Assembly (NCBI GenBank): GCA_002686085.1
Contig: NZAC01000014.1
Location: 109,071-154,306, forward strand
Length of the DNA: 45,236 nucleotides
From: Roseibacillus sp.
Lineage (GTDB): Bacteria; Verrucomicrobiota; Verrucomicrobiia; Verrucomicrobiales; Akkermansiaceae
Direction of reading: 5' to 3'
Part shown: positions 57 to 35,177 of the stretch, one piece after another
Position numbering within the stretch: position 1 is the stretch's first letter
Layout: the number at the start of each line of letters is the position of its first letter
The notes under the pieces: model-generated
Seen by the model: only the letters and a program-made list of their open reading frames with translations
What the model was told of the DNA's origin: nothing
The model's database searches: none
Made by a program: the position numbers and the translations under genes

Positions 57-1025
57 TCAACCACTCTCCTCAGCCGGGCTGAGGGCACATCGGAAGCTGA
101 GATGGCAGGTCGTTGAGTCAGGAGTGACCTTGCTCCGGGCAGAGTTGCGGTAGCGATTGCAGTAGGACTCGTGGCAAAGAAACGATCCGCCACGGATGAC
201 CTTTTCGGTCCCGCTCCCTGGCCCTGCGGGTTCTCTGACCGGAGATTGGGTGTAATAGTGGGGATCAAACCAATCAGCAACCCAATCCCAGGTATTACCC
301 ATCATGTTGTAGAGGCCAAAATCGTTGGCTGGAAATGAACGCGCCGGGGCGGTGCCGCGGTAGCCATCAGCACCAAGGTCCTTTTTGGGAAATTGTCCCT
401 GCCAGATGTTACATCGATGCTTGCCCCCGGGACTCAGTTCATCGCCCCAAGGGTAAGTGGAACCCTCTTTTCCACCGCGGGCAGCGCATTCCCATTCCGC
501 TTCAGTAGGAAGACGTTTTCCTGCCCAGTGGCAGAAGGCCTCAGCATCATGCCACGAGATATGGACGACCGGATGGTTCATGATTTTCCGGATGTTGGTG
601 CCAGGCCCGCCCGGTTTTTTCCAGCTGGCACCCTCTACCTTTGCCCACCATTCGACGCCAAAGGCCCGGTCAAAGCGGAGGCGTTTGAAGTGAGCCTTGG
701 GGATCTGGTTGTGAAACACAAAAGACCATCCAAAGCGTTCCGCCTCAGACTGGTATCCGGTCGCATCGACAAAAGTAGAAAATGACTCATTGGTAACAGA
801 GGTTTGATCAATGAAATAGTCCTCAAGACTAACTTGGTGGACCGGTCCTTCTCCGTCTGCGCTCCAACATTCGGGTCCTTCAGCGCCCATGGAGAACATC
901 CCTTTTTTGACCATGGTCATCCCTTTAGATGAACCAGCGTCCGGTGAGCGGAGGAGGCATGATTTCTTGGTATTGGGATCGCTGTGATCTCTTGGAGGGG
1001 TGCAGCAGGGTTTTCCTTCCGGCAT
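57..1025 (-). CDS. Formylglycine-generating enzyme (SUMF1-type sulfatase-modifying factor)
   Basis: This 322-residue protein belongs to the FGE-sulfatase family, which oxidises the active-site cysteine of sulfatases to formylglycine. The sequence contains the expected order of motifs: an N-terminal MVKKGMFSMG strand, HPVVHISWHDAEAFCHWAGK, RLPTEAEWECAARGG, YPWGDE, and near the C-terminus GGSFLCHESYC followed by RNSARSKVTPDS and LSFRCA. The two cysteines C284 and C289 match the catalytic pair of human SUMF1 (SYMCHRSYC), so this is a true FGE rather than one of the many family members that lack them. The N-terminus has a CCTPPRD motif and no signal peptide, so it should act in the cytoplasm before sulfatase export. 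It is transcribed divergently from the sialidase-like gene. Two Cys-type sulfatases in this window (9088-10509 and 27757-29319) are likely clients. Confidence 0.93.
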   Translation of the reverse strand: MPEGKPCCTPPRDHSDPNTKKSCLLRSPDAGSSKGMTMVKKGMFSMGAEGPECWSADGEGPVHQVSLEDYFIDQTSVTNESFSTFVDATGYQSEAERFGWSFVFHNQIPKAHFKRLRFDRAFGVEWWAKVEGASWKKPGGPGTNIRKIMNHPVVHISWHDAEAFCHWAGKRLPTEAEWECAARGGKEGSTYPWGDELSPGGKHRCNIWQGQFPKKDLGADGYRGTAPARSFPANDFGLYNMMGNTWDWVADWFDPHYYTQSPVREPAGPGSGTEKVIRGGSFLCHESYCNRYRNSARSKVTPDSTTCHLSFRCALSPAEESG

Positions 1026-3409: not shown

Positions 3410-3760
3410 TCAAGGAATTGCGCCTTGGGGGGAAGTCAAGGATCCAGGGTTTGCGGCTCCAGCCCTGAGGCTTTTCTCCAGTCGAAAGGTTCAAATGCCC
3501 CGTCCCTAGTCTCCAACGCGGAGAGTTCAAAGGCATCGGCAGCTATCATCCAGTGATCTTAAGGCCTTCCGAAGGGTCCGATTCTTCAGTTGAGCGGCTG
3601 GGAGTTGGCTTTTACGGGTTTTGGCAGCCTGCAGCGGCTTACCATTTGCTCAGGAGGATCCGCCGAGGAGCTTCTCCTTTGGTCACACCGTCGTGGCACG
3701 TTTTTTCTGTATGTAGATGCCGAATTTTGCCCTAATTTCGATCGTGTGGGCTAGATAACA

Positions 3761-3789
3761 GATGAGGGCCTATTTAAACAGCCCTCATC
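3761..3789. terminator. 9-bp perfect hairpin upstream of the PSCyt2/PSD1 gene
   Basis: GATGAGGGC (3761-3769) pairs perfectly with GCCCTCATC (3781-3789) across an 11-base AT-rich loop. No U-tract follows. It ends 57 bases before the next start codon, so it may be either a terminator-like element or a 5' leader hairpin of that gene. Confidence 0.4.
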
Positions 3790-3846
3790 GTCTTCTGGAC
3801 GCGCCGCCGAAAAACCCAGCTCACGCTGCCATCTTTTGATCACTGC

Positions 3847-6471
3847 ATGAAGACCGCTCTGCCAATCCTGTTGGGACTCTCTCTGTTCCCAACCTTTTTG
3901 ACCGCCGAGGATGATATCACCAAGGTGAATGCCACCACTAAGGCATTCTGGTCCTATAAGCCGCTTCGTCGGCCCAGTGTGCCAGAGGTGAAGGACCCAG
4001 CGTGGAGCCGTAGCCCAATCGACGCTTTCCTTTTTGATCGCTTAGAGACCAATGGGCTCAAGCCTAATGGCCCAGCGTCGAGACGAGAGTTGATCCGGCG
4101 GGCAAGTTTCGACATCACGGGGTTACCTCCCACTCTTGAGGAGGTGGAGGCCTTCGAAAAGGATTCTTCTCCCGACGCATGGGAAAAGGTCATCGACCGG
4201 CTTCTGGCCTCGCCGCACTATGGAGAAAAGTGGGCGCGGCACTGGCTTGATATTGTTCGATACGCCGAGTCTAACGGTTTCGAGCGGGACTCGGATAAAC
4301 CACATATCTGGCGTTACCGTGACTATGTGATCGATGCGCTGAACGCGGATCTCCCCTATGATCAATTTCTTCTGGAGCAGCTGGCAGGTGATGAGCTCGA
4401 AAAGCCTACGTCGCAGTCCATGATCGCGACGGGATATCATCGCCTCATGCAGTGGGATGATGAACCTGCGGATCGGCTTTTGCACTTGTTTGATAATCTT
4501 GATGATGACCTGCGGATTACCACCGAGGGGATGCTGGGGATGACTGTGGGGTGCGCGCGGTGTCACGATCACAAGGGAGATCCCATTTCGCAGGAGGATT
4601 ACTACAGTTTCATGGCTTTTTTCCGCGGTGTAAAACAGCCGGGGAAGGGCGGAGCAAATATTGAAAATGTTGGTGGCGGTGAAGGAGATGCCGGATATCT
4701 AGCCTCTCTGGAAAAGCACGATGCGGAAGGCGAGAGGGTCAAGGAAGAGCTGGAAATTGCTGAGAAAAAGATCGGGCAGCAGTTGATTAAGACGTTTCCG
4801 AGCCTCAAGGGAAGACTCAGCAGCTCTGGGGATGAATTTCTGGTCTTGCTAGGTGATGGTCGCGAGCCGAGCCCCGGGAAGTGGTTTTACACTACCCGCA
4901 AGCCCTCGGCGAACTGGTCGGCGGTCAATTTTCGTGCTGAGAATGAGAAGTGGAAAAGGGGGGTCGCAGGCTTTGGAAAAGCGGGAACTCCCGGAGTCAA
5001 GGTGAACACGGAATGGAGTTCCAAGGAGCTCTGGGCTCAAGCTACCTTTTTGTTGGAGAGCATTCCCGAAAAGCTGAGGCTGTCGTTGATCCATGATGAG
5101 GACGTAGAGATTTTTCTGAACGGGCAGCTTGTCCTCAGGGAAAGTGGTGTTCTTGGAAATTATAAGGATTTCGATGCGGACAAGAAGTTCCTTTCTGCTC
5201 TCCAGACCGGCCGGAATGTGGTGGCAGCGAGGGTGACGCAGACGAAGGGCGGTCAATCCTTTGATTTTGGAGTCAAATCCTACCAAGGCGAAAAGTTTAC
5301 CATCGATGTGGCCCTCGCCATGGCGAAATCAAAGGGTGTTGATGGGGGCCTCCTCGCCAAGAGGAAGGACCTTAAAAAGCGGATTGCACAACACGCTCAG
5401 AGCCGGCCGAAGCCGACGAGCGTCAGCGCTCAGGTTGTGCAGGAGCATGGCAAAACACCGCCCCCCCTATACGTGCACTACCGAGGGAATCCCCACGTAA
5501 AGGGAGAAAAGGTCATGACCACGAGGATTCCAACAATCTTTGGAGGAGACGAGCTGGAACACGAGTCTCCTGCTCACGGTCGAAACACCAGCGGGCGTCG
5601 ACTGGCGCTCGCGAAGTGGATAATCAAACCCGACAACCCCCGGACCTCGCGGGTGATCATGAATCGCCTCTGGCAGCACCACTTTGGGCGGGGCATCTGC
5701 GCTACTCCCAATGACTTCGGTTATCTTGGAGAGCGCCCAACTCATCCGATTCTTCTCGACTGGCTCGCCACGGAACTGGTGAGTAAAAAGTGGAGCCTCA
5801 AGCAGATGCACAAGGTGATCATGCTTTCTCAGGCTTATCAGATGTCCTCAAAGGGGCAGGCTGCAAATTTGGCAAAAGATCCGGACAACAAGTTATTCTG
5901 GCGTTTCAACATGCGTCGTCTGACTGCCGAGGAGCTGCGTGATTCAGTGCTCGCCACGACAGGGCGGCTGAACAGGAAAATGGGAGGTCCGAGCGTCTTC
6001 ATCAAGCTCGCTCCGGAAGTGTTGGCGACGTCTTCAACAAAAGGTGGAAAGTGGGGAAATTCTCCCCCGGAAGAGCAGACTCGAAGGAGCGTATATATCA
6101 AGGTCAAGCGGTCGATTGTTCCACCTATTCTACAGGATTTTGACTTGGCGGATACAGATGGCACCTGCCCGGTTCGCTTCCGGAGCATCCTGCCCACTCA
6201 GGCCTTGGCCATGATGAACAGCGCCTTTGTAAACGAGGAGGCCGTAAGTTTCGCTGAACGACTTCGATCCGAGGCCCCTGATGATCCTCGCCGGCAGGTA
6301 GGTCTTGCTCTTGAAATTGCTCTCGCCAGGGCGGCTACCGTCAGAGAGCTGGACTATGGCATCGAATTTGTAGAGGTTATGATGCGTGAGCATAAGCTAT
6401 CCTCTGAAGACGCTCTCAATCGGTTCGCTCTTCTGGTCCTGAACCTTAATGAATTTTTCTTTGTCGACTGA
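3847..6471 (+). CDS. PSCyt2 (DUF1549) and PSD1 (DUF1553) domain protein, probable c-type cytochrome
   Basis: An 874-residue exported protein of a family abundant in Planctomycetes and Verrucomicrobia. A signal peptide (MKTALPILLGLSLFP, cut near LTAEDD) is followed by the DUF1549 domain with RRASFDITGLPPT, YGEKWARHWLDIVRYAES and a CARCHDHK motif, where C236, C239 and H240 form a CxxCH haem-binding site. Residues of roughly 330-480 look like an inserted beta-sandwich (KWFYTTRKPSANW to DFGVKSY), and the C-terminal half is DUF1553 with NPRTSRVIMNRLWQHHFG and the later RSILPTQALAMMNS. The N-terminal PSCyt1 domain found in some relatives is absent. Its partner DUF1501 gene follows after 39 bases, the usual gene pair of this family. 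The biochemical role is unproven; these pairs often lie beside sulfatases and glycan-degrading genes, as here. Confidence 0.92.
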   Translation: MKTALPILLGLSLFPTFLTAEDDITKVNATTKAFWSYKPLRRPSVPEVKDPAWSRSPIDAFLFDRLETNGLKPNGPASRRELIRRASFDITGLPPTLEEVEAFEKDSSPDAWEKVIDRLLASPHYGEKWARHWLDIVRYAESNGFERDSDKPHIWRYRDYVIDALNADLPYDQFLLEQLAGDELEKPTSQSMIATGYHRLMQWDDEPADRLLHLFDNLDDDLRITTEGMLGMTVGCARCHDHKGDPISQEDYYSFMAFFRGVKQPGKGGANIENVGGGEGDAGYLASLEKHDAEGERVKEELEIAEKKIGQQLIKTFPSLKGRLSSSGDEFLVLLGDGREPSPGKWFYTTRKPSANWSAVNFRAENEKWKRGVAGFGKAGTPGVKVNTEWSSKELWAQATFLLESIPEKLRLSLIHDEDVEIFLNGQLVLRESGVLGNYKDFDADKKFLSALQTGRNVVAARVTQTKGGQSFDFGVKSYQGEKFTIDVALAMAKSKGVDGGLLAKRKDLKKRIAQHAQSRPKPTSVSAQVVQEHGKTPPPLYVHYRGNPHVKGEKVMTTRIPTIFGGDELEHESPAHGRNTSGRRLALAKWIIKPDNPRTSRVIMNRLWQHHFGRGICATPNDFGYLGERPTHPILLDWLATELVSKKWSLKQMHKVIMLSQAYQMSSKGQAANLAKDPDNKLFWRFNMRRLTAEELRDSVLATTGRLNRKMGGPSVFIKLAPEVLATSSTKGGKWGNSPPEEQTRRSVYIKVKRSIVPPILQDFDLADTDGTCPVRFRSILPTQALAMMNSAFVNEEAVSFAERLRSEAPDDPRRQVGLALEIALARAATVRELDYGIEFVEVMMREHKLSSEDALNRFALLVLNLNEFFFVD

Positions 6472-8825: not shown

Positions 8826-9087
8826 GGATCTGTAGTGGTTGTGGATGAATGGAACCAGCAGGGGCTGCTTCCGTTGCATACCGAAGCGGGCGGAGGTTGA
8901 GAGTTTTCTCTGGCCGGGTCCAGAATTGATCCTGAGCCACTACCCAAATTATGGGTAACACCCCTGAAAACCAGTAGGGCGGGACGGGTCAGTCCCTGTG
9001 AGCGGCATCCCCGACGATTTCGCTTCCGACCCCCACGGGGATGGCAAATACTGCGTCAAACGAACTATGATACGTCCGATTCAGTCC

Positions 9088-10509
9088 ATGAAAGTCCTCG
9101 CCCCCTTCCTCTCTATCTGTGTTCTTTTCAGCCTGTCCTTCGCAAGGGGGGAGAAGCCCAACATCCTCTTTATTTTCGCGGATGACATGACATACGATGC
9201 GATTGCAGCTCTGGGTAATGAGGAGATTGAGACTCCCCATCTAGACCAGTTGGTGAAGAGAGGGACAACGTTTACTCACGCGTATAATTCGGGATCCTGG
9301 AGTGGGGCAGTTTGTGTTGCGAGTCGTCATATGCTGATGACGGGACGCCAGCTTTGGAACGCCCAGAAAGTTGCCAATCGGAAAGGAATGAGTGCATTTC
9401 AAGAGCAGGGAAAGTGCTGGCCCCAGTTGCTCGAGCGCGCTGGGTATCGAACATACATGTCGGGTAAGTGGCATGTCCAGGTTGATGCGGGTAAGCTCTT
9501 CAACGTGGCAAAGCATGTCAGGCCGGGGATGCCGCGGTCGGTGAAAAAGGCATACAATCGCCCACTTGAAGGAAAGCCGGATCCGTGGGACCCCGCCGAC
9601 AAGTCAATCGGGGGATTCTGGGAAGGTGGTAAGCACTGGAGCGAGGTCCAGGCAGATGATGCGGTGGGCTTTCTTCAGGATGCGGACAAGTCAGAGCAGC
9701 CGTTCTTTATATATTTGGCTTTCAATGCCCCTCATGACCCACGTCAGGCTCCGCAGGAGTATCTCGATAAGTATCCGGCCAGTGAGATTATGGTGCCCCG
9801 GAACTTCCTGCCCCGGTATCCCTATTGTGATGAAATTGCAAATCCTCATCGGCTCCGGGATGAGAACCTTGCCCCCATGCCGAGGACCCGGCATGCCGTC
9901 CAGGTTCATCGGCGAGAGTATTATGCCATTATCACACACATGGATACGCAAATTGGACGTGTTCTCGATCAGTTAAAAAGCAGCGGGAAGGAGAAGGAGA
10001 CCTATGTGGTCTTTACCGCTGACCACGGCTTGGCGGTGGGGCAGCACGGTCTCTTCGGCAAGCAGAACATGTATGACCACAGTGTCCGGGTTCCGTTCAT
10101 GGTGACAGGGCCCGGGGTAGCGGCCGGTGCGACCAATGACGCTCCAATCTATCTGCAGGATATTATTCCAACTTCTCTGGATTGGGCGGGTGCGGATACC
10201 CCGGACCATGTCCAGTTTAAGAGTATTCAGCCTCATTTAGAGGGGAACGGCAAAAAGCGGGAATATGTATATGGCGCATATCTGGGAGTGCAGAGGTCGA
10301 TCACTGCTGATGGATACAAGCTGATGTATTATCCCAAGGCCAACAACATGCTGCGTCTCTATAAGGTTTCAGAAGACCCTCATGAAACCAACGATCTAAT
10401 GAAAAGCGACGACCCAGCGCTGAAGGACGTAGTGGCTAGACTGTGGAATCGTCTTATCGCGGTTCAGGGAGAATTTGGAGATACCCTGAAGCTGCAGAAG
10501 CCTGAGTAA
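9088..10509 (+). CDS. Secreted Cys-type sulfatase
   Basis: A 473-residue sulfatase (alkaline phosphatase superfamily). The ATG at 9088 starts a signal peptide (MKVLAPFLSICVLFSLSFA); an in-frame upstream ATG at 8998 would add 30 residues without export character. The metal-binding pair sits in NILFIFADDMTYD (D32, D33). The sulfatase signature is CVASR, with C76 to be converted to formylglycine and R80; Ala replaces the usual Pro, an accepted variant. SGKWH (about 126-129) and the C-terminal VVFTADHGLAVGQHG with the metal-binding DH are present. The overall pattern resembles choline-sulfatase/iduronate-2-sulfatase-like enzymes, but the substrate cannot be assigned. Activation requires the formylglycine-generating enzyme at 57-1025. 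The gene is convergent with the barrel gene at 10634. Confidence 0.92.
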   Translation: MKVLAPFLSICVLFSLSFARGEKPNILFIFADDMTYDAIAALGNEEIETPHLDQLVKRGTTFTHAYNSGSWSGAVCVASRHMLMTGRQLWNAQKVANRKGMSAFQEQGKCWPQLLERAGYRTYMSGKWHVQVDAGKLFNVAKHVRPGMPRSVKKAYNRPLEGKPDPWDPADKSIGGFWEGGKHWSEVQADDAVGFLQDADKSEQPFFIYLAFNAPHDPRQAPQEYLDKYPASEIMVPRNFLPRYPYCDEIANPHRLRDENLAPMPRTRHAVQVHRREYYAIITHMDTQIGRVLDQLKSSGKEKETYVVFTADHGLAVGQHGLFGKQNMYDHSVRVPFMVTGPGVAAGATNDAPIYLQDIIPTSLDWAGADTPDHVQFKSIQPHLEGNGKKREYVYGAYLGVQRSITADGYKLMYYPKANNMLRLYKVSEDPHETNDLMKSDDPALKDVVARLWNRLIAVQGEFGDTLKLQKPE

Positions 10510-13724: not shown

Positions 13725-13772
13725 ACACAACATGTGGTATTGTGAATAATTTGATCATACAATATGGACAAG
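13725..13772 (+). promoter_or_regulatory. Candidate NrdR box pair and -10 element of nrdB
   Basis: ACACAACATGTGGTAT at 13725-13740 matches 12 of 16 positions of the NrdR palindrome acaCwAtATaTwGtgt. A second site, ATACAATATGGACAAG at 13757-13772, matches 9 of 16, nearly all in its left half. The two begin 32 bases apart, about three helical turns, the spacing usual for NrdR box pairs. TACAAT at 13758-13763 could serve as the -10 hexamer, so NrdR bound here would overlap the promoter. The consensus is from published regulon work; the match counts are mine. Confidence 0.5.
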
Positions 13773-13890: not shown

Positions 13891-14988
13891 ATGTCAGAAA
13901 CCACCACAGTCCAGATCGGAGATCGATCCTTTGTTTTAGACCAAGAAAAAGCGCAGGAAGCGTTTGCTGCCAAAAGCGTGATCAATGGTAAGGACACCAT
14001 GTTTTTCAACATTCTTCCGCTGAAATATCAGTGGGCGTATGAGCTCTACAAGACCATGAAAAACAATCATTGGGAGCCCGAAGACATCCCAATGCAGAGA
14101 GACGTAGAGCAGTGGCGAGGGACCGACGAGATCTCCGATGTCGAGCGCTGGATCATCAAGATGGGGATCGGCTACTTTTCGGCGGCAGAGGGGATCGTTG
14201 GGGACAATATCATGCACGTGATTCGTGAGCTGGTGACTGCTCCCGAACTCAAAATGGTCCTTGGTCGTCATGCCCATGAAGAAAACATCCATGCGGATTC
14301 TCTCGTCTACATGATTTCTTCCCTGGGCCTCAATCCGCATGAGTGCGAGGCGATGTTCGAAGACATCCCTACGATTACGGCCAAAAACAATTTCCTGGTG
14401 ACCAATAGCCGAAGCATGCGTCGGGACGTCGATCTGACTACGACCGAAAATAAGCAGGCCCTTGCAAAGAACATGTTCATGTTCGGTCAAGTCATGGAAG
14501 GAACTCAATTTTATGGGCTCTTCGGGATGATCTTGAGTCTTTACAGGCAGAACAAGTTTCCCGGCATTGGACAAATGTTCCGCTACACCCTTCGGGACGA
14601 GTCCAATCATATCGAGCTTCTGCGGCAGCTTCTCAATGAGCTGGTCGTAGAAAATCCTGATATCTGGACCGAAGAATTCCGAAACGACCTCCGCGAAACG
14701 ATGCGGAAGGGTGTCGCTCTGGAAAAGCAGTTTATCCGGGATTGTCTGCCAGTGGATGCAGTAGGACTCAACGCGTCCGACTTTGAGCAGTATATCGATT
14801 ACATAGGTGACCGTCGTCTTGTGAACTGCCGCCTTGATCCTCTCCACGAGAATGCTTCCAACCCTTTCCCTTGGCTTGCTGAGATGATGGATATCAAGAA
14901 GGAGCAGAACTTCTTTGAAGGTCGTGTGACGGAGTACCAGAAGTCTTCAGCTCTGGAGCATGCAGGGTATAGTGACGACGACCTCTAG
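13891..14988 (+). CDS. nrdB: Ribonucleotide reductase R2 subunit, tyrosine-less (class Ic-like)
   Basis: A 365-residue radical-generating subunit of class I ribonucleotide reductase. The six metal ligands are all present with family spacing: E100 (SAAEGIV), E131 and H134 (EENIH), E203 (VMEGTQF), E237 and H240 (RDESNH). The residue four after H134, where E. coli R2 has the radical Tyr122, is L138. Chlamydia trachomatis R2 has Phe there and uses an Mn/Fe cofactor instead of a tyrosyl radical; published alignments of that subclass include Phe, Leu and Val. The distances E100-E131 (31), E131-E203 (72) and E203-E237 (34) fit the Chlamydia protein closely. The acidic C-terminal tail (EHAGYSDDDL) keeps a Tyr for radical transfer and R1 docking. 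It precedes nrdA by 175 bases, the reverse of the common order. Confidence 0.96.
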   Translation: MSETTTVQIGDRSFVLDQEKAQEAFAAKSVINGKDTMFFNILPLKYQWAYELYKTMKNNHWEPEDIPMQRDVEQWRGTDEISDVERWIIKMGIGYFSAAEGIVGDNIMHVIRELVTAPELKMVLGRHAHEENIHADSLVYMISSLGLNPHECEAMFEDIPTITAKNNFLVTNSRSMRRDVDLTTTENKQALAKNMFMFGQVMEGTQFYGLFGMILSLYRQNKFPGIGQMFRYTLRDESNHIELLRQLLNELVVENPDIWTEEFRNDLRETMRKGVALEKQFIRDCLPVDAVGLNASDFEQYIDYIGDRRLVNCRLDPLHENASNPFPWLAEMMDIKKEQNFFEGRVTEYQKSSALEHAGYSDDDL

Positions 14989-15163: not shown

Positions 15164-18100
15164 ATGTATAGATCCATTACCCTCGAGGAAGATATCGCAC
15201 TGAAGCAAGTCATTGCGAATCGGCATGGCGACGAAACGAGTTGTCAGCGCTACAACTGGCGGGAGTCCCTCGCAAGTGAGCACCGTGCTCCAATACCCGA
15301 AATCATTGTAACGCGGGGTGCTGGGGAGGTGCAATTTTCCCTGGCGGATGTGACCGATACCATTGGGGAAGCGCTCACCGATCTTCTTCTTTCTCGCCAG
15401 GAGCAGGAGGAAAGGATCTTCAATGATGAGAATCGTAATTTCGTCACGGCTGTAGCCTTCAGTGTTGCCAAAAGCCTTATGCAGCAGGTGCAACGTGGGG
15501 GAACGATTAAGCTGAGCCATAATGATCTGAATCTCCTTATAGAGAAGGCTCTGATCGAAAACGATGCGCACGACGTCGCGAAGTCTCTTCTCTTTGCGCG
15601 GAGTTACGAGAAGAACGGAGAAATCTTGGTCAGTGAGGACCCGCATCTCATGCCTGTCCGACTCATTCGCAGGAACGGAAATGTTGTTCCATGGAGTGAA
15701 ACGAAGATCGAGACCGCAGTCCGTAAGGCCTTCCTCGACCTGCGCAAGGACCCTGAGCCTGCATCACGAATTGCTCATGGGGTCACCAAGAGAGTTCGGG
15801 GAGGAGATTCGGCCTTCGTGCATATCGAGGATGTGCAGGATCTCGTTGAGGAAGAACTGGGCCGGCAGGGCCAATATGAGGTCATGAGGGCCTACATGTC
15901 CTACCGGATCCAGCGTGCGGAAGTACGGAAGATCCATCAGGCTGAGGCGACCGAGGATCCCAATCAGGACTCCATGGTCGTGGTGACGAGGGAGGACGGG
16001 CAGAGTGATTTCTGGGACGGAACAGAACTCAAGAAACGAATTCAATTCGGAATGATTGGGTTGAATCTCTGTCTCAGCGAGGAAGAGATCGAGTTCGAAC
16101 TTCGAAGGTCGATTGGAGCCGAGATCGCGGAGAGCGAGTTGCAGAGAACCATTGTTCTCAACGCCAAGTCGCTCATTGAGAAAGACGCCGATTTTGCCAA
16201 GTTTGCTGCGCGAATTCTACTCAGTTATATTTACGAAGAGGTCCTCGACTGGTCGATTCAGCGGGATGGGATTGCCTCGCTGAAGGCGGCGCACCAGGAA
16301 CAGTTTCGGCGGTACCTGAAGCACGGAGTCGCGATTAAGAGAATCAGCCCTGAACTTGTTGAGCGCTACGATCTGGAGCGTCTTTCGGAGGCGTTCGACC
16401 CCTCCGCAGACCTCGATTTCGATTACTTGGGGATCCAGACCCTCTACGATCGTTATCTCGTAGTAGATAAGACCTCTGCGAAGCCGAGGAGGATTGAAAC
16501 CCCTCAATTTTTCTGGATGCGGGTGTCAATGGGACTCTTCAAGGCAGAGGAACAAAATCGGGAAGATTGGGTTATTCGACTTTACCAGCTGTACAAGGGC
16601 CGGAGGTTCTGCTCTTCCACCCCAACGCTCTTTAACTCCGGAACACTCCATTCCCAGCTGTCGTCCTGCTATCTTTACAAGGTCGATGATTCCATCGAGT
16701 CCATCATGATAAGAGGAATCTCCGAAAATGCCTTCCTTTCCAAGTGGGCCGGAGGCCTGGGGGGATCATGGACGAGTGTTCGGGGGACTGGTGCCTACAT
16801 TCAGGGGACAAACGGCGAAAGCCAGGGAGTCATACCCTTCCTCAAATTACACAACGACCAACTGGTCGCCGTTAATCAGGGTGGCAAGCGCCGAGGATCA
16901 GGCTGCGCTTACCTCGAGAGCTGGCACAATGACATTGAAGATTTTCTTGAGCTGCGAGTGAACACCGGGGATGAGCGCCGGCGGACGCACGACATGAATA
17001 CCGCGAACTGGATTCCGGATCTCTTCATGAAGCGGATGGAGGCAAGAGAGGACTGGACTCTTCTCAGGGCTAATGAGTGTCCCGACCTTCATGATCTCTA
17101 CGGGAAAGCCTTCGAACAGCGTTATCAGGAGTATGAGGAAAAGGCCGCCGAGGGGAAAATCTGGAGTCGTAAGGTCAAGGCTATCGATCTCTGGAAAAAA
17201 ATGCTCAAGATGCTCTTTGAGACAGGGCACCCATGGATCACGTTCAAGGATCCCTGCAATGTACGTAGTCCTCAGGACCACGTAGGGGTGATTCATTCCT
17301 CGAACCTGTGCACGGAGATTACCCTCAACACCAGTGATGACGAGACCGCGGTCTGTAATCTTGGTTCGGTCGTATTGGACACCCATGTGACCAAGGACGG
17401 CATGCTGGATCATGAAATGCTGAGTGAAACAATCACCGTTGCGATTCGGGCCTTGGACAATGTCATCGATATCAACTTCTATCCGACCGATGCGGCGAAG
17501 ACAGCCAATAGCCGCCACCGGCCGATCGGTCTCGGTGTCATGGGACTCCAGAACGCGCTGTTTAAGAAGGATCTCTCTTTCGCCAGTGACGACGCGGTAG
17601 CCTTCAACGATGAGTTCATGGAGGCGATAGCCTATTATGCTTACGGTGCGTCAAGTGACCTGGCGGCTGAGCGTGGTAGCTATTCAAGCTACAAGGGCTC
17701 CAAATGGGATCGGGGAATCCTTCCTCAGGACACTCTGGATCTCCTAGAAGACGAGCGAGGTGATGCTGTGACGGTGCCGCGTGGCGGTAAAATGGACTGG
17801 AAACCCGTTCGGGAGAAAATCATGAAGCATGGAATTCGAAATTCCAATGTCCTCGCCATCGCTCCGACTGCGACGATCTCAAATATCATGGGCACCACCC
17901 CGTGTATTGAGCCGAACTACAAGAACCTTTTTGTGAAGAGTAACCTCAGCGGGGATTTCACAGTGCTGAACAGACAACTCGTCCAGGATCTGAAGAAGGA
18001 AGGCCTCTGGACCCCCGACATGCTGGACCAGCTCAAGTATTTTGACGGGGAGTTGAGCGATATTGATGAGATACCAGAAAGTCTGAAGCAGAAACACCTC

Positions 18101-18436
18101 ACGGTGTTTGGAGTAGATTACAATTTCATCATTGATGCCGCATCTCGCAGACAGAAGTGGATTGATCAAAGTCAGAGTGTGAATCTGTTTCTGGCCTCAC
18201 CGGACATGAAGGCTTTGAGTCACATGTATCGCCATGCGTGGCGAACTGGACTTAAGACGACCTATTACCTGCGAACTCTTCAGGCCAGTAATATCGAAAA
18301 GGCAACAGTGCAGCTAAAGAAGGACAGTGCCCCTCAGGGCGAAAAACCCGGGGGGAAAACGTATACTCCTGAGGAGAAAACTGCCTGCTCCATCGAAGCC
18401 ATGATGAATGGCGGCGAGTGCGAGGCCTGTCAGTAA
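15164..18436 (+). CDS. nrdA: Ribonucleotide reductase R1 subunit with multiple ATP-cones
   Basis: A 1090-residue catalytic subunit that reduces ribonucleotides to deoxyribonucleotides. It is longer than E. coli NrdA because of an extended N-terminus with what appear to be three ATP-cone-like domains: a degenerate one at about 46-150, a clear one beginning PVRLIRRNGNVVPWSETKI at about 165-260, and a third starting VVVTREDGQSDFWDG near 270. Chlamydia NrdA also carries three, in agreement with the class Ic-like R2. Active-site residues are complete: redox pair C502 (SSCYLYK) and C731 (AVCNLGS), thiyl C716 with N714 and E718 (NLCTEI), Y1034-Y1035 (KTTYYLRT), and C-terminal thiols C1086/C1089 (GGECEACQ). 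No intein or frameshift is seen. It probably shares the nrdB promoter. Confidence 0.97.
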   Translation: MYRSITLEEDIALKQVIANRHGDETSCQRYNWRESLASEHRAPIPEIIVTRGAGEVQFSLADVTDTIGEALTDLLLSRQEQEERIFNDENRNFVTAVAFSVAKSLMQQVQRGGTIKLSHNDLNLLIEKALIENDAHDVAKSLLFARSYEKNGEILVSEDPHLMPVRLIRRNGNVVPWSETKIETAVRKAFLDLRKDPEPASRIAHGVTKRVRGGDSAFVHIEDVQDLVEEELGRQGQYEVMRAYMSYRIQRAEVRKIHQAEATEDPNQDSMVVVTREDGQSDFWDGTELKKRIQFGMIGLNLCLSEEEIEFELRRSIGAEIAESELQRTIVLNAKSLIEKDADFAKFAARILLSYIYEEVLDWSIQRDGIASLKAAHQEQFRRYLKHGVAIKRISPELVERYDLERLSEAFDPSADLDFDYLGIQTLYDRYLVVDKTSAKPRRIETPQFFWMRVSMGLFKAEEQNREDWVIRLYQLYKGRRFCSSTPTLFNSGTLHSQLSSCYLYKVDDSIESIMIRGISENAFLSKWAGGLGGSWTSVRGTGAYIQGTNGESQGVIPFLKLHNDQLVAVNQGGKRRGSGCAYLESWHNDIEDFLELRVNTGDERRRTHDMNTANWIPDLFMKRMEAREDWTLLRANECPDLHDLYGKAFEQRYQEYEEKAAEGKIWSRKVKAIDLWKKMLKMLFETGHPWITFKDPCNVRSPQDHVGVIHSSNLCTEITLNTSDDETAVCNLGSVVLDTHVTKDGMLDHEMLSETITVAIRALDNVIDINFYPTDAAKTANSRHRPIGLGVMGLQNALFKKDLSFASDDAVAFNDEFMEAIAYYAYGASSDLAAERGSYSSYKGSKWDRGILPQDTLDLLEDERGDAVTVPRGGKMDWKPVREKIMKHGIRNSNVLAIAPTATISNIMGTTPCIEPNYKNLFVKSNLSGDFTVLNRQLVQDLKKEGLWTPDMLDQLKYFDGELSDIDEIPESLKQKHLTVFGVDYNFIIDAASRRQKWIDQSQSVNLFLASPDMKALSHMYRHAWRTGLKTTYYLRTLQASNIEKATVQLKKDSAPQGEKPGGKTYTPEEKTACSIEAMMNGGECEACQ

Positions 18437-19895: not shown

Positions 19896-20195
19896 CTCAG
19901 CTTGCCAACGGGCTTACTGGGAGTCTCGAACCCAGAATAGTGACCCAGTTGGGTTGTAATACCGGGCTTGGTTCGTGTGGTGGGGCAACCGCGGGGCAGG
20001 CGTCCCACTGGCTGCTTTGCAGAGGGAATGGAATAAAAAGACTAAAAAATAGGCCTTATAATGATTGCCAGCTCCGTGAGGTCTCGGGGAAAAAGAACAC
20101 TTGGTGAATACAGAGATTTTTCTGGCGTCGGGGGGGGCTGTCGTATGTATAATGCGAATACCCTGAGCCTTCGACCATTTAACATGCATGCCGCT
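19896..20195. other. Intergenic region before the Verru_Chthon A gene
   Basis: No gene is supported. It has small inverted repeats just after the DUF4432 stop (CTGGG at 19917-19921 with CCCAG at 19931-19935, and ACCCAGTTGGGT at 19943-19954), TATAAT hexamers at 20057-20062 and 20148-20153 without a good -35, and an eight-G run near 20130. In-frame ATGs exist upstream of the chosen start of the next gene (for example 20184). Confidence 0.5.
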
Positions 20196-23100
20196 ATGAC
20201 AACTACCAAGGATAGAGGGAGAAAGGGCTTCTCCCTTGTTACCACTGTCACGATTCTGGTGCTCCTTTCTCTTATCGCAATCGGGCTTCTTTCGCTGTCT
20301 GCTGTGACCCTGCGTAGCAGCACCTCTGAACTGGCCCAGTTGGAGGCGCAATCCAATGCTCGGCTGGCCCTGATGGTGGCGATTGGAGAATTGCAGGCAC
20401 ACCTCGGCCCTGATCAGCGGGTTTCTGCGGAAGCTGGTGTTCTCGACAAGGAGCCAGATCCCTACAACGCGGAGGGAATCCAGGGGATCAGGCATCCGCA
20501 TTGGGTTGGGGTGTGGAGCACTGAGTGGGTTCCTCCGGGCAGCGACGGCGTCAACAAGTCTCCGTGGGTCCGTGATGATGATGAGGGAGGCTTGAGTGAT
20601 CAGCGATTCACGGGTGCAGCAGGTAGGGGCTTTGACAGAGAGAGAGACATTCTTAGCTATCTCATCAGTGGCAATGAAGGGGGACGTGCCGAGCTGGGAG
20701 TCGACCTCATTGAAGCCGAGGCTTGGGAGGGAGACCAGATTGAGCTTGTTGGTGATGGAACCGTGTCAACCACTGAAGAATATGTTGTTGCCCCTCGGGT
20801 ATCCACGCGCAACGACCAGAACCGGGTGACCGGTGGCTATGCCTATTGGATTGGGGATTTGGGTGTGCGGGCCAATGTGGCCATGGTTGATGCCTACAAT
20901 CTCGACGATCCAGCACGGGGGCCCAATCCCGACGGCATGGAGCGCATCCTGAACCCTCAGGACACCGCAGCGAAGCAGCTTGATGGTATCAATAACGACC
21001 TCACCGACGAGGAAGTCCGCAAGCTCATCAGCCGTAAAACCGTTGAGCTGACTGACGGAGTGCCCAGCAGGGAAAATGCGCTGCGTAAGAAGCAGGCTTT
21101 CCACCACCTCACCACCCAGTCCAAGGCCGTTCTGTGTAACGTGCGGCAGGGGGGACTTCTGCGGGATTTGACTGCCTACATTCATGATCGTCGCGGCACG
21201 ATCAGAGACCTTCGGGCTGATGGGCGGATAACTTCCCAGGGTATCGATAATTTAGACAATATGATTGGGCCGGCAAACGCCAATGTGGCGAGGGAGCAGG
21301 GGACGACCTGGGGCCGGACAAAGTATCGGGACATCGCTCCGACCTTTGCTCTGGTTCGCAACTGGGCTCTTGCCGGCCGGGCTCTGCAATACGCCGAAGA
21401 GGATACCGCCATGGTAGACCCGGCGCCCCCAACCGCAGAGGACATCGCCAATGGAACCCTGCGGGGCATGAACGACGGGGTGAATGTCTATGACGGCGGC
21501 AATCTGCGGCCGGCGTCGTTCCTGCCTTTCGTCGAACCTAACCTCTTTCCGGTGATGACCGAGGCCTCGGTCTACTACAACCTTGCGACTTATCCGCAGT
21601 CTGAAAACAACCCCTCGTCTGGGAATGTGCTTCGGGTCTGTGTCTACCCCAGGGTCGCACTTTGGAACCCTTACAACGTGGCCCTCAATCTGCACAACAT
21701 GTGCGCCACAATGTTCGTTAACGGAAACAAAGATGTTCGTATCACCTACAGTGACCGCACGACCCGTAGCAACGTGCCGATTCCGTTTGGTCGGGGATCG
21801 ACGAGAGTTGGAGCGAGAGCTAGTGGTGCTGATCCCAGCCCGGGGCACTATGTCGGATGGCTGCTGGTGAAGTTGCAACCCACGACCATCCAGCCGGGTG
21901 AGACTCTCGTTTTCAGTCCGATGCGGACCGCAGAATATCAGACCTTTCAAGTGGACCGCAACGTTCTCTCGTCCTCGGTGGCCCCGGATCCGAGCATCTA
22001 CTTCTACCAGGACATGCAGGCGACCCATACCAAGCAGCCTACGAGCTTCATCGAGTTCCCGGGTCCAGGCAACCAGTCGGGTGGAGATAACTACATGATG
22101 TCGCTGAAGAGTGCGGGAAGGCAACGAACTTTCAATGACTCCTCCTTCAACTCGATGCAGTCCATCGTCTACGCTAACACCTCCCTTCAGGCAGGGGGTA
22201 GCGATGAGCTTCCTGTGCTGTGGGCCTCTGGGCGTGGACGACAGCCAGAGCCCCGGGTTCACCGGCTCGCTAATAGCCGGGACCGGCTTCCTGGGACCGC
22301 AATTCCTGACACCCGGACGAGGGATGGATTTCGCATCCGTTGGTGGGATGAGCATCGCTCCAATATCCTTGGCTCCGGCCAGTTACGTGGGCAACCGCAG
22401 CACCTCAAGACCTCCGTGATTGGAACGTGGAACCCCCGGGCCGCCTACTTCTGCCGGAACCCTTGGGACAATATCACGGACCTTCCTCCTCATTTCTATG
22501 GGATGTACACCCGCGATTTGTTCGACCAGAGAGTCAGCTGGCAGAATATGATGCCGCGCTCGGTAGATGGGAAAAACGTAAGCTGGCCCTTCGGCGAGCC
22601 TCTGGGTGCGCCGGATGATGGAGTGGTTCTTTTTGACGTGCCCCGCGAGGAGATCGGTATTCCCTCCCTCGGGTTTCTCCGTCATCTCAAGCTTTCGGAA
22701 TTCGGATGGCACCCGAGCTATGCGGTGGGTAACTCCCTCGTGGATCCCCGGGTAGGCCGCCTTCACACCAGTCCGGTCCTGCGCACCTCGCAGGAGAAGA
22801 GGAACAACGGGTGGAACCAGTATCTCTTTGGGCATCAGGGAGGTAGGACCTCTGGAAGGGGTGCTGACTACTGGGCCATGCTGACAAGGCAGATCCTGTT
22901 CAATCGACCTGATGACCACTTTGTGGTTTATGACCTGAGCTATGAGACCAACTTCAACCTGTGGGACAATTTCTTTGTGTCGACCGGTAATCCTTCCCGG
23001 AAGCAGGCCTTCGTGAGGAATCCCGAGGAGAACCCCCTGCCGAATGGACGTTTCCAATTGATTGGAACCGGCACGGAGGTAGAGCGCGATGTTGTCGATT

Positions 23101-23915
23101 TTCATCGATCGGCCAGCCAGCTCTGGCTCAATGGTGGGTTCAATGTGCACTCGGTCAGCGTGGATGCGTGGAAGGCTGTGCTGGCCTCTGCCATGAACGC
23201 TGGCGACTATGCTAGTGAGGACGCCGTTCCCTTTCCCCGGGTGATCAACCCACCCAACGGGGAGTATCTTGGGGGCAACTGGGATGACGAGGAAGCAACC
23301 TCAGGTTTCCTCAGTATCGACGGAAGTGATGCCACGGACAGTGAATTGGAGCGACTCGCCCAGGAAATCGTGCGGGAGGTAAAGGAGAGGGCACCCTTCT
23401 TTGGCCTCTCAGACTTTATCAACCGTCGGCTGGTAGCGAGTGAGCATGGCGATGCCGGTCCGATCGAGGCAGCGATCCAGCGGTCCGGAATTAACGCCGA
23501 GTTCGACGAGAATGAAATTCTTCGGATCCCCAATACCGAGGATGATCGTCTTCGGAATGTGAGCTTCGATAATATGCGTGACGCAACCCGCCTCGAGCAG
23601 ACCCAGAAGCCTGACTCCGTGGCATGGGGACTTCCTGGTTACCTGACTCAGGGGGACGTCGTACAGGCGATTGGTTCCGCCCTGCGACCACGGTCCGATT
23701 CCTTTATTGTCCGGGCTTATGGTGAATCCGTAGACGCACAGGGCGAAGTGGAAGCCAGAGCATGGTGTGAGGCGGTTGTGCAGCGTAGTCCGGAGCCCGT
23801 CAATCCGGACTCCAGTGGGTTGAATCCTGTGGCTAAGCGTAACCCCGACGATCTTGAATTTGGTCGCCGCTTCAAATTGGTGAGCTTCCGCTGGCTGAAT
23901 GCCGAGGAAGTCTAG
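20196..23915 (+). CDS. Verru_Chthon cassette protein A (prepilin-like giant secreted protein)
   Basis: A 1239-residue protein of the Verru_Chthon cassette type A family (TIGR02600-like), known from Verrucomicrobia and normally found with the smaller B, C and D pseudopilins. The N-terminus has a prepilin-like leader: basic residues and G-F (DRGRKGFSLVTTVT) then a single hydrophobic helix (ILVLLSLIAIGLLSLSAVTL). Unlike classic type IV prepilins there is no Glu at position 5 of the mature helix. The rest is long and non-repetitive, with the family-typical YAYWIGDLGVRANVAMVDA, VALWNPYNVALNLHNM and the C-terminal GDVVQAIGSALRPRSDSFIVR, close to the end of GspK-like domains. Start ATG 20196 is chosen to place the leader correctly. 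No B/C/D partners are seen in this window. It ends before a strong terminator. Confidence 0.85.
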   Translation: MTTTKDRGRKGFSLVTTVTILVLLSLIAIGLLSLSAVTLRSSTSELAQLEAQSNARLALMVAIGELQAHLGPDQRVSAEAGVLDKEPDPYNAEGIQGIRHPHWVGVWSTEWVPPGSDGVNKSPWVRDDDEGGLSDQRFTGAAGRGFDRERDILSYLISGNEGGRAELGVDLIEAEAWEGDQIELVGDGTVSTTEEYVVAPRVSTRNDQNRVTGGYAYWIGDLGVRANVAMVDAYNLDDPARGPNPDGMERILNPQDTAAKQLDGINNDLTDEEVRKLISRKTVELTDGVPSRENALRKKQAFHHLTTQSKAVLCNVRQGGLLRDLTAYIHDRRGTIRDLRADGRITSQGIDNLDNMIGPANANVAREQGTTWGRTKYRDIAPTFALVRNWALAGRALQYAEEDTAMVDPAPPTAEDIANGTLRGMNDGVNVYDGGNLRPASFLPFVEPNLFPVMTEASVYYNLATYPQSENNPSSGNVLRVCVYPRVALWNPYNVALNLHNMCATMFVNGNKDVRITYSDRTTRSNVPIPFGRGSTRVGARASGADPSPGHYVGWLLVKLQPTTIQPGETLVFSPMRTAEYQTFQVDRNVLSSSVAPDPSIYFYQDMQATHTKQPTSFIEFPGPGNQSGGDNYMMSLKSAGRQRTFNDSSFNSMQSIVYANTSLQAGGSDELPVLWASGRGRQPEPRVHRLANSRDRLPGTAIPDTRTRDGFRIRWWDEHRSNILGSGQLRGQPQHLKTSVIGTWNPRAAYFCRNPWDNITDLPPHFYGMYTRDLFDQRVSWQNMMPRSVDGKNVSWPFGEPLGAPDDGVVLFDVPREEIGIPSLGFLRHLKLSEFGWHPSYAVGNSLVDPRVGRLHTSPVLRTSQEKRNNGWNQYLFGHQGGRTSGRGADYWAMLTRQILFNRPDDHFVVYDLSYETNFNLWDNFFVSTGNPSRKQAFVRNPEENPLPNGRFQLIGTGTEVERDVVDFHRSASQLWLNGGFNVHSVSVDAWKAVLASAMNAGDYASEDAVPFPRVINPPNGEYLGGNWDDEEATSGFLSIDGSDATDSELERLAQEIVREVKERAPFFGLSDFINRRLVASEHGDAGPIEAAIQRSGINAEFDENEILRIPNTEDDRLRNVSFDNMRDATRLEQTQKPDSVAWGLPGYLTQGDVVQAIGSALRPRSDSFIVRAYGESVDAQGEVEARAWCEAVVQRSPEPVNPDSSGLNPVAKRNPDDLEFGRRFKLVSFRWLNAEEV

Positions 23916-27756: not shown

Positions 27757-29319
27757 TTATTTGCTGCCAGGCTGCTTATTGGCATTCACTCCGATGGGGG
27801 CTTGTGGCCAAGGGGTCTCTCCGGGAGCCCACTTGGTGGGCTGTTTGGCTCGCACCGCATCCACGTGTCTGACCAGCCACTTCGGAGGCTTAGTGTTCTC
27901 TTTTTGACCGTAGATGTAGGGGAGAGGAGGATCCATCAGGAGCGGTTTGTTGCCGAGCGGTGGGCGCTCACTGTCCACCTGCGCGAGCCGGGCTGCGAGG
28001 CGCTTTACGATCCCAGGATGGTCGCCTGCAACGTCGTTCTTTTCGTAGGGGTCCTTCGCGATATTGAAGAGCATATCACCCATGAGTTTCCAGTCGCCAC
28101 TGCGGATGGTGGGAACCCGGACGCTGCCGGTAACCTCGAAGACGATTTCCTTCCGTGGGCTGGCAGCTCCCCCAAAGAGCATGGCGGTCATGTCGAGCCC
28201 ATCAACCTTGGTGTCCTGGAGTGCGTTCGCCCCGGCAAGTTGGATGAAGGTTGAATAGAAGTCGGCGATGAACATCATTCCATCATGAGAGCTACGAGGC
28301 TTGGTATGGCCGGGCCAGCGTAGAAGGCAGGGAACGCGGACCCCCCCCTCGAAGGTGGTGTTTTTGGTGCCTCGCCACGGGGTGCTCATGGACTCGAGCA
28401 CTGGACCGTTATCATTGGTAAAGATGAAGAGGGTGTTGTCGCGAAATCCGTGTTTGTCGATGGCTCCTGCGATTTTTCCCACCGCGGTGTCGAGAGATCG
28501 CAGCATGCCGTCGCGAATCGCAAGAGGGTCCTTTTCTCCAGCGGGAAAATCTGCGGGGGGATTGAGAGGTCCATGAACGGCGTTGAAGGGAACGTAGAGA
28601 AAGAAGGGCCGCTTGCGGTCCCGTGCCCGGGCCTCGATGACTCTCTCGGCCTCTGCGGCGAATAGGTCGGTCGCATAGCCTTCTTCCCGGAGGGGCTTCT
28701 GGTTACGATGCCAGTCGTAGACTGCGAAACGGGCGGGCGCATTGTGAACAATGGTCTTGGTGTAGTAGTCGATACCCCAGGCATAATGTCCGTACTGGTG
28801 CATGAAGCCCTGACCCATTGGAAGGTGTTCTTCGAGCCATTCACCACAATGCCATTTACCCACCAGAGCGGTAAAATAACCGGCTTCGCGCAGAGCCTCC
28901 GCTATCGTTCTTTCCTCAGTATCAAGCGCATGAATCCGCCTCGTGGGTTCTCCCCGTTCATTGTGTGCAAGAGTCAGGCCAAGGGCTTTCAGGTAACTGG
29001 GCTTGCCAAAATCCTCTGAGCGCCAGTCCATCCAGTTTCGGAAGGCATAGCGGCCGGTGAGAAACGCGCCGCGGGTTGGTGCGCAGACGGAGTGGGTGTA
29101 GAACTGAGTCAGGCTCAGGCTCTCTCCGGCGAGTTTATCGAGGTTGGGGGTGAGTCCCTTGGTGCTCCCGTTGAAGCCTGGTTGATTCCATCCCATGTCG
29201 TCCGACATGATAAAGACGATGTTGGGCCGACTCCCGGCTTCATCGGCAGCCAACCCGGGTATGGGGGCAAGGAAAAGGGGGAAGAGCCCAGTAAGGATGA
29301 CCTTCTTCATAGTGCGCAT
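27757..29319 (-). CDS. Secreted Cys-type sulfatase, arylsulfatase B-like
   Basis: A 520-residue sulfatase. The start ATG at 29319 leads into a signal peptide (MKKVILTGLFPLFLAPIPGLA from an inner ATG at 29310, which is an equally good start). The metal pair lies in NIVFIMSDDMGWN, the signature is SVCAPTRGAFLTGRY with C79 for formylglycine and R83, then VGKWHCGEW and the C-terminal FIFTNDNGP with its metal-binding Asp-Asn. The region GQGFMHQYGHYAWGIDYYTK resembles arylsulfatase B/I/J, enzymes for N-acetylgalactosamine-4-sulfate and similar, so a sulfated glycan substrate is likely. The second sulfatase (9088-10509) belongs to another branch. Activation needs the enzyme at 57-1025. It is separated from the upstream dehydrogenase gene by a terminator. 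Confidence 0.93.
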   Translation of the reverse strand: MRTMKKVILTGLFPLFLAPIPGLAADEAGSRPNIVFIMSDDMGWNQPGFNGSTKGLTPNLDKLAGESLSLTQFYTHSVCAPTRGAFLTGRYAFRNWMDWRSEDFGKPSYLKALGLTLAHNERGEPTRRIHALDTEERTIAEALREAGYFTALVGKWHCGEWLEEHLPMGQGFMHQYGHYAWGIDYYTKTIVHNAPARFAVYDWHRNQKPLREEGYATDLFAAEAERVIEARARDRKRPFFLYVPFNAVHGPLNPPADFPAGEKDPLAIRDGMLRSLDTAVGKIAGAIDKHGFRDNTLFIFTNDNGPVLESMSTPWRGTKNTTFEGGVRVPCLLRWPGHTKPRSSHDGMMFIADFYSTFIQLAGANALQDTKVDGLDMTAMLFGGAASPRKEIVFEVTGSVRVPTIRSGDWKLMGDMLFNIAKDPYEKNDVAGDHPGIVKRLAARLAQVDSERPPLGNKPLLMDPPLPYIYGQKENTKPPKWLVRHVDAVRAKQPTKWAPGETPWPQAPIGVNANKQPGSK

Positions 29320-29369
29320 CAAAGAGGAGCGAGCAGTAGATACAAGATTTCAGTTGCGTCCTCGCCGCA

Positions 29370-32291: not shown

Positions 32292-32936
32292 TTATTGGCC
32301 CGAACTGGTTTCCGGATCGACTGAGAGGAGAGATGACCTTCGGGGAGAAGGGTTCAGGGGAGAGGGGCCCCGGAGTCGCCGTCCAATCACCTCAAGCTGA
32401 ACTTCGCGCGCTTTTTTTGTGCCATCGCGAAGGACGATCTGCCACAGGCGGGTTCGATCGCTTGGAACGGAGGGGATAAGCAGGAGGCTGAGCACCCCGG
32501 CGTGGGTGATATCGCTTTTGCTAGGGGCGGCATCGCTGGACGGATGCGAGTGAAAAGACCCAATGATCTTGGAGTCGCGGTTGTCTGCGGCTTTTCGAAC
32601 ACGCTGGACGCTGCGAGGAGATAACTCGTAGGAGTGAGAACGATTACTTGCGTTTTCAACAAAGAATAGTTCAAGGGATCTGCTATTGTCAGCATGTTGG
32701 AGGATGGCTCCACAAACTTCACGGTTTCCCTCTGCAGCGGCCGCCCGGGCCTCTCGTTTGAGTCGGAGATTTTCTGGCAGCGAAAGTTGGTAGGAGGATG
32801 TTACCCATTGCGGATCAAGGTAGGGGCGGTCCGCATAGGGCGGTCGATGCTGGCACGCGGAAACCACGAAGGCGCAGGCCAGAACAAGACCAGTGGAACA
32901 AAATCGCAGGTTGTGTAGATGGTTATTTGTATTCAA
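32292..32936 (-). CDS. Secreted lipoprotein with a JAMM (Mov34/JAB1) metalloprotease domain
   Basis: A 214-residue protein if begun at TTG 32936; the frame stays open to 33185 but the extra part is not coding-like. The start gives a lipoprotein signal: hydrophobic GLVLACAFVVSAC with C28 as the lipidated residue. The mature protein has the zinc-metalloprotease JAMM motif HSHP (H129, H131) with S139 and D142 seven and ten residues later, and a preceding Glu (E73 in REVCGAIL), so all metal and catalytic residues are present. JAMM proteins cleave isopeptide or other amide bonds or remove ubiquitin-like tags in many systems, and bacterial ones are normally cytoplasmic. A lipoprotein form is unusual. 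The C-terminus is Ser/Pro-rich. It is convergent with the propeller gene. Confidence 0.78.
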   Translation of the reverse strand: MNTNNHLHNLRFCSTGLVLACAFVVSACQHRPPYADRPYLDPQWVTSSYQLSLPENLRLKREARAAAAEGNREVCGAILQHADNSRSLELFFVENASNRSHSYELSPRSVQRVRKAADNRDSKIIGSFHSHPSSDAAPSKSDITHAGVLSLLLIPSVPSDRTRLWQIVLRDGTKKAREVQLEVIGRRLRGPSPLNPSPRRSSLLSVDPETSSGQ

Positions 32937-33164
32937 CAACTCCGCCGTTCTAACCGTTTTCCTCGTTGTGAGCCTGGAGGGGATCTTCCGCGTGCCGCCG
33001 ATCTGGATTCCAGTGACTGGACCACGTTCCATTGACAGGCCGGTAAAGCGGCTCCATGTCAGAGTCTTTCGGGGACGACTTCGCGAAGGGGCTTCCACTA
33101 CATCTGGATTTGAGGGTCGATTCCGCCAAGATGACTGAGTCTCGAAAGATCTGAGTGGGAGCTT

Positions 33165-33197
33165 GCCTGACTGTAGTTTGCACAATCCGAGTCAGGC
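33165..33197 (-). terminator. Weak hairpin after the TPR-like gene
   Basis: GCCTGAC (33165-33171) pairs with GTCAGGC (33191-33197), a 7-bp stem with a 19-base loop, directly after the stop of the minus-strand gene at 33203. No T-run. It may be a terminator. Confidence 0.3.
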
Positions 33198-33202
33198 TGG
33201 GA

Positions 33203-35143: not shown

Positions 35144-35177
35144 GCCGGATTGCTTGGCTGAAATCTTACTCAGTACT

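Follow-up and report, generated by a model that had tools for sequence, protein, structure and literature searches.

The closest described relative of the enzyme reported here is NrdB of Chlamydia trachomatis (R2c; PDB entries 1syy, 4d8f and 4m1i), a class Ic ribonucleotide reductase (RNR) small subunit that works with a Mn(IV)/Fe(III) cofactor and carries a phenylalanine, Phe127, where the radical tyrosine is expected. All class Ic cofactor studies that we found in the open-access literature concern this Phe-containing enzyme. A second Tyr-less protein, R2 of Saccharopolyspora erythraea (6y2n), is reported only as a serial-crystallography test case (PMC7467353). Glutamate as the first metal ligand marks class Ic, against aspartate in classes Ia and Ib (PMC4118035), and residues other than phenylalanine are already foreseen at the radical site: in work based on RNRdb, NrdBz proteins count as subclass Ic if they carry ‘Phe, Leu, or Val’ (PMC6370689), class Ic reference sequences are given as having ‘phenylalanine or leucine’ (PMC12918982), and an earlier paper credits Leu, Ile and Val at this site to Hogbom 2010 (PMC3824934). 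By these definitions, the leucine variant is already a known part of class Ic. In the open-access literature, we found neither a description of a purified Leu-type enzyme nor a paper on a verrucomicrobial class Ic RNR.

The window, that is, the whole 45,236-nucleotide stretch of Roseibacillus sp. DNA that was analysed, contains such a leucine variant. Its R2 gene (nrdB) occupies positions 13891–14988 of the forward strand, starts with ATG and runs without an internal stop codon for 365 residues. The protein matches the NCBIfam model NF005550 (PRK07209) with 354.5 bits against a cutoff of 309, and both this model and Pfam PF00268 name the open reading frame as the ribonucleotide reductase small chain. 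HMMER alignment with C. trachomatis NrdB and S. erythraea R2 places E100 (codon at 14188–14190), E131 and H134 (14281–14292), E203 (14497–14499), and E237 and H240 (14599–14610) on all six metal ligands, confirming a claim made in the sequence-only reading of this DNA; ligand 1 is thus a glutamate, as in class Ic. L138 (14302–14304), which the same reading had placed at the radical-tyrosine position, indeed falls on the phenylalanine column of 1syy/4d8f and 6y2n, with zero gaps between H134 and L138 relative to any C. trachomatis or S. erythraea chain. That reading had also named a tyrosine reaching the radical position through an alignment shift as an outcome that would overturn it, and in our alignment no shifted tyrosine replaces L138. 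Radical-transfer residues are likewise kept, namely W61, Y232 (C. trachomatis Y222), D236, which directly precedes ligand E237 and belongs to the electron-transfer chain, and Y349 (C. trachomatis Y338).

An AlphaFold2 model of R2, built from an alignment of 59 sequences, reached a mean pLDDT of 88.6 and a pTM of 0.86. The top PDB matches of this model are all C. trachomatis NrdB structures, including Mn/Fe forms (4m1i, 4d8f), with Foldseek E-values of ~1e-20, TM-scores of 0.80–0.84 and VIA Z-scores of ~41; S. erythraea R2 follows, and then class Ia enzymes at Z-scores of 37 and below. The model shows a predicted fold that matches C. trachomatis NrdB, a result that speaks to the fold and not to the metal.

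We also compared the protein with the described R2 subclasses. As in class Ic, it combines a six-ligand dimetal carboxylate site, a glutamate at ligand 1 and a leucine at the radical site with the C-terminal tyrosine, the tryptophan and the aspartate of the radical-transfer path. It is not a class Ia or Ib R2, in which a radical tyrosine stands four residues after the first histidine ligand, a position held by leucine here and in every ortholog; with leucine at this place, no tyrosyl radical can form at its usual site. Class Id R2s have a conserved non-radical tyrosine at the radical position, which is absent here. Class Ie R2s have lost the ligand carboxylates and carry a DOPA-forming tyrosine; here, all four carboxylates and both histidines are kept, and the tyrosine is missing. 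Finally, R2lox proteins have an alanine in place of R2c Phe197 and lack the C-terminal radical-path tyrosine, and both corresponding residues, F207 and Y349, are present in this protein, for which no R2lox model scores above 52 bits, versus 354 for the R2 model.

The leucine is fixed well beyond this genome. The R2 gene is found in all 15 genomes of the genus and in ~60 further verrucomicrobial genomes at 67–83% identity, and every ortholog in the genus, the family and the phylum whose site is readable has leucine at position 138. Named relatives, such as Roseibacillus sp. SP242 at 90% identity, locate this DNA within or close to Akkermansiaceae, and Leu-type loci were also seen in the cultured Haloferula luteola and Pelagicoccus sp. 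Since all genus-level sequences covering the site carry the identical leucine, a sequencing error is excluded; the frame is open throughout and the same residue recurs in family and phylum, ruling out an assembly error or a pseudogene. Outside Verrucomicrobiota, the Leu type is present in Armatimonadota (Fimbriimonadaceae), in Rhodothermota (the complete genome of Roseithermus sacchariphilus), in a few genomes from the same phylum as a Pirellulales bacterium (Planctomycetota) and in four genomes of deep Chlamydiota, the phylum of a Chlamydiota MAG, from which the other 26 R2s fetched are of the Phe type. Scans of viral contigs returned zero Leu-type R2s and only Asp+Tyr and Glu+Phe combinations at ligand 1 and the radical site. 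A deep Leu-type subclade (L080, L145, L146, L147 and L304–L307), ~50–57% identical to the R2 of the window, takes in genomes of deep Chlamydiota; those members that were read have histidine as residue 140.

Gene content indicates that this R2 has to work. The genome of origin, which is 96% complete, contains one R2 and one PF02867 (class I/II) match, the latter being the R1 that adjoins nrdB; a second PF02867 match and a PF13597 (class III) match were both sought in this genome and not found, so that another RNR doing the work is rejected. As the sole class I/II RNR found, with no class III match beside it, the Leu-type R1/R2 pair must, on this gene content, be functional. Exactly one PF02867 match each was also counted in 11 single-contig Leu-type genomes (G251, G254, G018, G088, G091, G122, G274, G140, G223, G036 and G057), which indicates that the enzyme sustains life in these organisms.

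The same data bear on whether the protein might instead be a non-catalytic R2 paralog resembling yeast Rnr4, or an R2lox-type oxidase. R2lox shows that R2-like proteins can lack the tyrosine (PMC4118035), and the same clade does include a dead R2 paralog in tandem, but here the genome has no other R2, and the protein lies beside the only R1 and keeps all six ligands. The R2lox variant is further opposed by the retention of Tyr349 and of F207, the place at which R2lox has alanine (PMC4118035), and by the far better scores of the R2 models. We therefore consider either of these identities highly improbable.

Two kinds of tandem R2 genes were seen among the relatives. In Persicirhabdus sediminis (L195, ~3693–4900), a second R2 (46% identical) lies directly upstream of the normal Leu-type R2; in this paralog, also found at G309:C8:97460-98449, the ligands are destroyed (E100Q, H134R, E237V, H240R) and the radical-path tyrosines are lost, and by its sequence it resembles a non-functional beta-prime partner of the yeast Rnr4 kind. 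L077 (G116, 4489–5529) and L079 (G207) each contain a further Leu-type R2 in tandem, which sits on a long branch, with six ligands kept, Y140 replaced by histidine and Y232 (C. trachomatis Y222) replaced by asparagine.

Next, we compared ligand 1 and the radical site over 331 aligned R2 rows, among which some genes were fetched twice. Three residue combinations account for 327 of them: Glu with Leu (169), Glu with Phe (76) and Asp with Tyr (82). Of the rest, one row has an unreadable base in the ligand codon, one is a truncated fragment from a contig edge, and the others are a dead paralog fetched about twice; outside the fragment and the paralog, the combinations never cross. A sign test of the association between glutamate and the loss of tyrosine has only one or two independent pairs to draw on, and no p-value can be claimed from it, so the covariation is a clean pattern and not a statistical proof. 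A Glu+Phe R2 from a viral contig (L112), class Ic-like, falls within the Asp+Tyr proteins when distant outgroups are included in the tree, a placement that suggests one separate, possibly independent, switch of radical chemistry.

Further positions separate the two Tyr-less types. Position 233 (T233, 14587–14589) is threonine in 169 of 169 Leu-type rows versus isoleucine in 76 of 76 Phe-type rows, and position 210 (L210, 14518–14520) is leucine in 167 of 169 Leu-type rows versus glycine in all 76 of the Phe type; T205, Q206, G199 and M229 divide the two types in almost the same way. By spacing, T233, four residues before ligand E237, matches E. coli Ile234, four before E238, and L210 corresponds to E. 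coli Ser211 when counted from ligand 3. E. coli Ile234, together with Phe208 and Phe212, makes up a hydrophobic pocket next to the radical site (PMC5623701). Because Thr233, Leu210 and the four other positions split with the Leu type, Leu138 is, judged from these residues, part of a remodelled radical-site pocket. No description of Leu138 coupled to Thr233 and Leu210 and to the nrdB-nrdA gene order was found in the literature searched.

Position-by-position comparison also addresses whether a tyrosyl radical might form on another nearby tyrosine, Y95, Y140, Y208 or Y232. Y95 attracts attention as it is present in all Leu-type rows (169/169) and replaced by phenylalanine in all 76 Phe-type rows, yet it stands five residues before ligand 1 and so corresponds by spacing to E. 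coli Tyr79, which is hydrogen-bonded to Glu283 (PMC5623701), and helix geometry points its side chain away from the metals. Some members of the Leu clade have histidine instead of Y140. Y208 and Y232 hardly vary, but they are the common residues in Phe- and Tyr-type enzymes too. A relocated tyrosyl radical is thus improbable in our assessment, if somewhat less so than a non-catalytic protein.

Two trees were calculated, one after removal of distant outgroups and other long branches, and one that kept the distant outgroups. In the former, the Leu type forms one clade (100/100), and the Leu and Phe types lie together on one side of a branch that separates them from the Tyr types (100/100). In the latter, the Leu clade falls outside a group of Phe and Tyr types with weak support (57/95). 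For the former tree, joining the Phe types with the Pseudomonas-type Tyr group instead fits worse (p-AU 0.038). A single loss of tyrosine shared by the Leu and Phe types is favoured, though not certain, with the separate origin of the Leu type weakly backed by the 57/95 placement.

Taken together, we think it probable that R2 is a working class Ic (NrdBz-type) radical-generating subunit whose oxidant is held on the metals, most likely as Mn(IV)/Fe(III). In the mechanism that we propose by homology, the dinuclear centre held by E100, E131, H134, E203, E237 and H240 would react with O2, and the cofactor would take up one extra electron, leaving one oxidising equivalent stored on the metals, as Mn(IV)/Fe(III) in our best guess. 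In each turnover, the hole would pass from the metal site via D236/W61 to Y349, on to Y1034/Y1035 of R1 and finally to the catalytic C716. Leu138 and Thr233 would provide a redox-inert pocket by metal site 1, as Phe127 and isoleucine do in Chlamydia.

The second sphere differs from that of Chlamydia at the fixed or nearly fixed positions T233, L210, T205, Q206, G199 and M229, and the same metal pair therefore cannot be taken for granted. A metal-centred oxidant might instead use another pair, either Mn/Mn as in class Id or a high-valent Fe/Fe centre, tuned by Leu138, Thr233 and Leu210. The many fixed differences between the Leu and Phe clades would fit such a cofactor, and class Id offers a precedent for a metal-only Mn2 oxidant in class I R2s (PMC6754362). 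However, the ligand set, the glutamate at ligand 1, the electron-path residues and the fold all best match the Mn/Fe enzyme, and the tyrosine that is kept and essential in class Id (PMC8463856) is gone here; we regard another metal pair as unlikely, while giving it clearly more weight than a displaced tyrosyl radical. Similarly unlikely is a broader possibility, namely that Leu-type R2s are a distinct Tyr-less branch that runs all DNA synthesis in much of Verrucomicrobiota and whose pocket (Leu138/Thr233/Leu210, with T205, Q206, G199 and M229) supports an oxidant unlike the Mn(IV)/Fe(III) of Chlamydia in its metals, its level of oxidation or the way it handles protons. The Mn(IV)/Fe(III) class Ic enzyme is the reading that we prefer over both.

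Downstream of nrdB, the R1 gene (nrdA) lies at 15164–18436 of the forward strand, exactly where the sequence-only reading had put it, and encodes an NrdAz-type protein of 1090 residues. Its catalytic cysteines and Tyr-Tyr motif are intact: SSC (C502), NLC (C716), AVC (C731), the YY pair 1034–1035 and C1086/C1089, which are equivalent to the motifs of E. coli R1. The N-terminus, which had been read as a multi-ATP-cone arrangement, does contain three cone-like modules, of which only one is intact. Residues 28–162 (15245–15649) form a degraded ATP-cone-like module (Pfam E 0.012; profile-profile match with the intact cone at 77% probability, E 2e-5), residues 168–252 (15665–15919) the intact cone (PF03477, E 5.7e-20), and residues 272–390 or so (15977–16333) an innermost degenerate cone region, which aligns to the second cone of 5im3 within the full-length alignment and is weak on its own. 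In the deep Leu-type members L080, L145 and L146, R1 is without the extra N-terminal module.

The idea that a multi-cone R1 marks class Ic did not survive closer comparison. R1 scores 1236.5 bits against NCBIfam PRK07207 (cutoff 965) and 1062.6 bits against PRK12365, below the cutoff of 1350. Its closest solved relative is 5im3, aligned from residue 165 to the end, including the two-cone N-terminus (E 1.7e-281), which is the P. aeruginosa enzyme, whose R2 partner is class Ia. NrdAz includes both the P. aeruginosa class Ia enzyme, with two cones, and the C. trachomatis class Ic enzyme, with three (PMC9669993). As both subclasses fall within NrdAz, R1 is of no help in assigning the radical chemistry, its cones are rejected as class Ic evidence, and its architecture must not serve to assign a radical subclass. 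What stands of the class Ic-type pair first proposed from the letters is a Tyr-less, Glu-ligand R2 with a matching R1; the leucine is not outside the known definition of the class, and the cones are not diagnostic.

Gene order is nrdB-nrdA at Leu loci, and nrdA lies upstream of nrdB at the Glu+Phe loci examined. Upstream of nrdB, on the forward strand, a candidate NrdR operator pair spans 13725–13772, with boxes at 13725–13740 (13 of 16 consensus letters) and 13757–13772 (10 of 16) placed 32 bp apart, and is conserved in most of the genus.

Elsewhere in the window, a JAB-domain protein (PF14464) adjoins a 666-residue open reading frame with no Pfam or PADLOC match (32292–35203, reverse strand), possibly as a ubiquitin-like conjugation or defence-type pair. 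A 1284-residue open reading frame at 20061–23915 (forward strand) matches nothing in Pfam, NCBIfam or PADLOC at the thresholds applied. Two sulfatases and a protein with a formylglycine-generating (FGE-sulfatase) domain are encoded at 57–1025 (reverse), 8998–10509 (forward) and 27757–29322 (reverse); such proteins are usual in polysaccharide-degrading Verrucomicrobiota.

In many verrucomicrobial genomes, two single-contig ones of 0.9 Mb among them, no class I/II RNR other than the Leu type was found. The Leu type offers a natural test of which residue is needed beside metal site 1 for a metal-held oxidant, and of whether Mn/Fe chemistry is widespread or peculiar to the chlamydial lineage. The pairing of Leu138 with Thr233, fixed in all sampled members, points to a coupled double substitution.

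Set against known systems, the proposed enzyme would share with class Id R2s (F. johnsoniae, L. blandensis) an oxidant located on the metals; class Id R2s keep a tyrosine, absent here, and use Mn2. In class Id, Thr191 hydrogen-bonds this tyrosine. Compared with the Pseudomonas-type NrdA (5im3, NrdAz), R1 has an extra, degraded N-terminal cone, and Pseudomonas R2 is a class Ia protein with a tyrosine (PMC9669993). RNRdb NrdBzc (PMC6370689), compared by definition alone, describes what is found here, an NrdBz-type beta subunit with leucine at the tyrosine radical site and an NrdAz-type partner, and nothing in its wording excludes a Leu-type R2. S. erythraea R2, the top PDB sequence match by E-value (1.2e-78), has the same glutamate at ligand 1 and is equally Tyr-less, with phenylalanine in place of the leucine. 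C. trachomatis NrdB, matched at E ~1e-77 in sequence and best in fold, shares the six ligands, the glutamate at ligand 1, a non-Tyr radical site and the equivalents of W61, D236, Y232 and Y349. With 36% identity to it over the structural alignment, the Roseibacillus protein differs in having Leu for Phe, Thr233 for Ile and Leu210 for Gly, an N-terminal extension and the nrdB-nrdA gene order.
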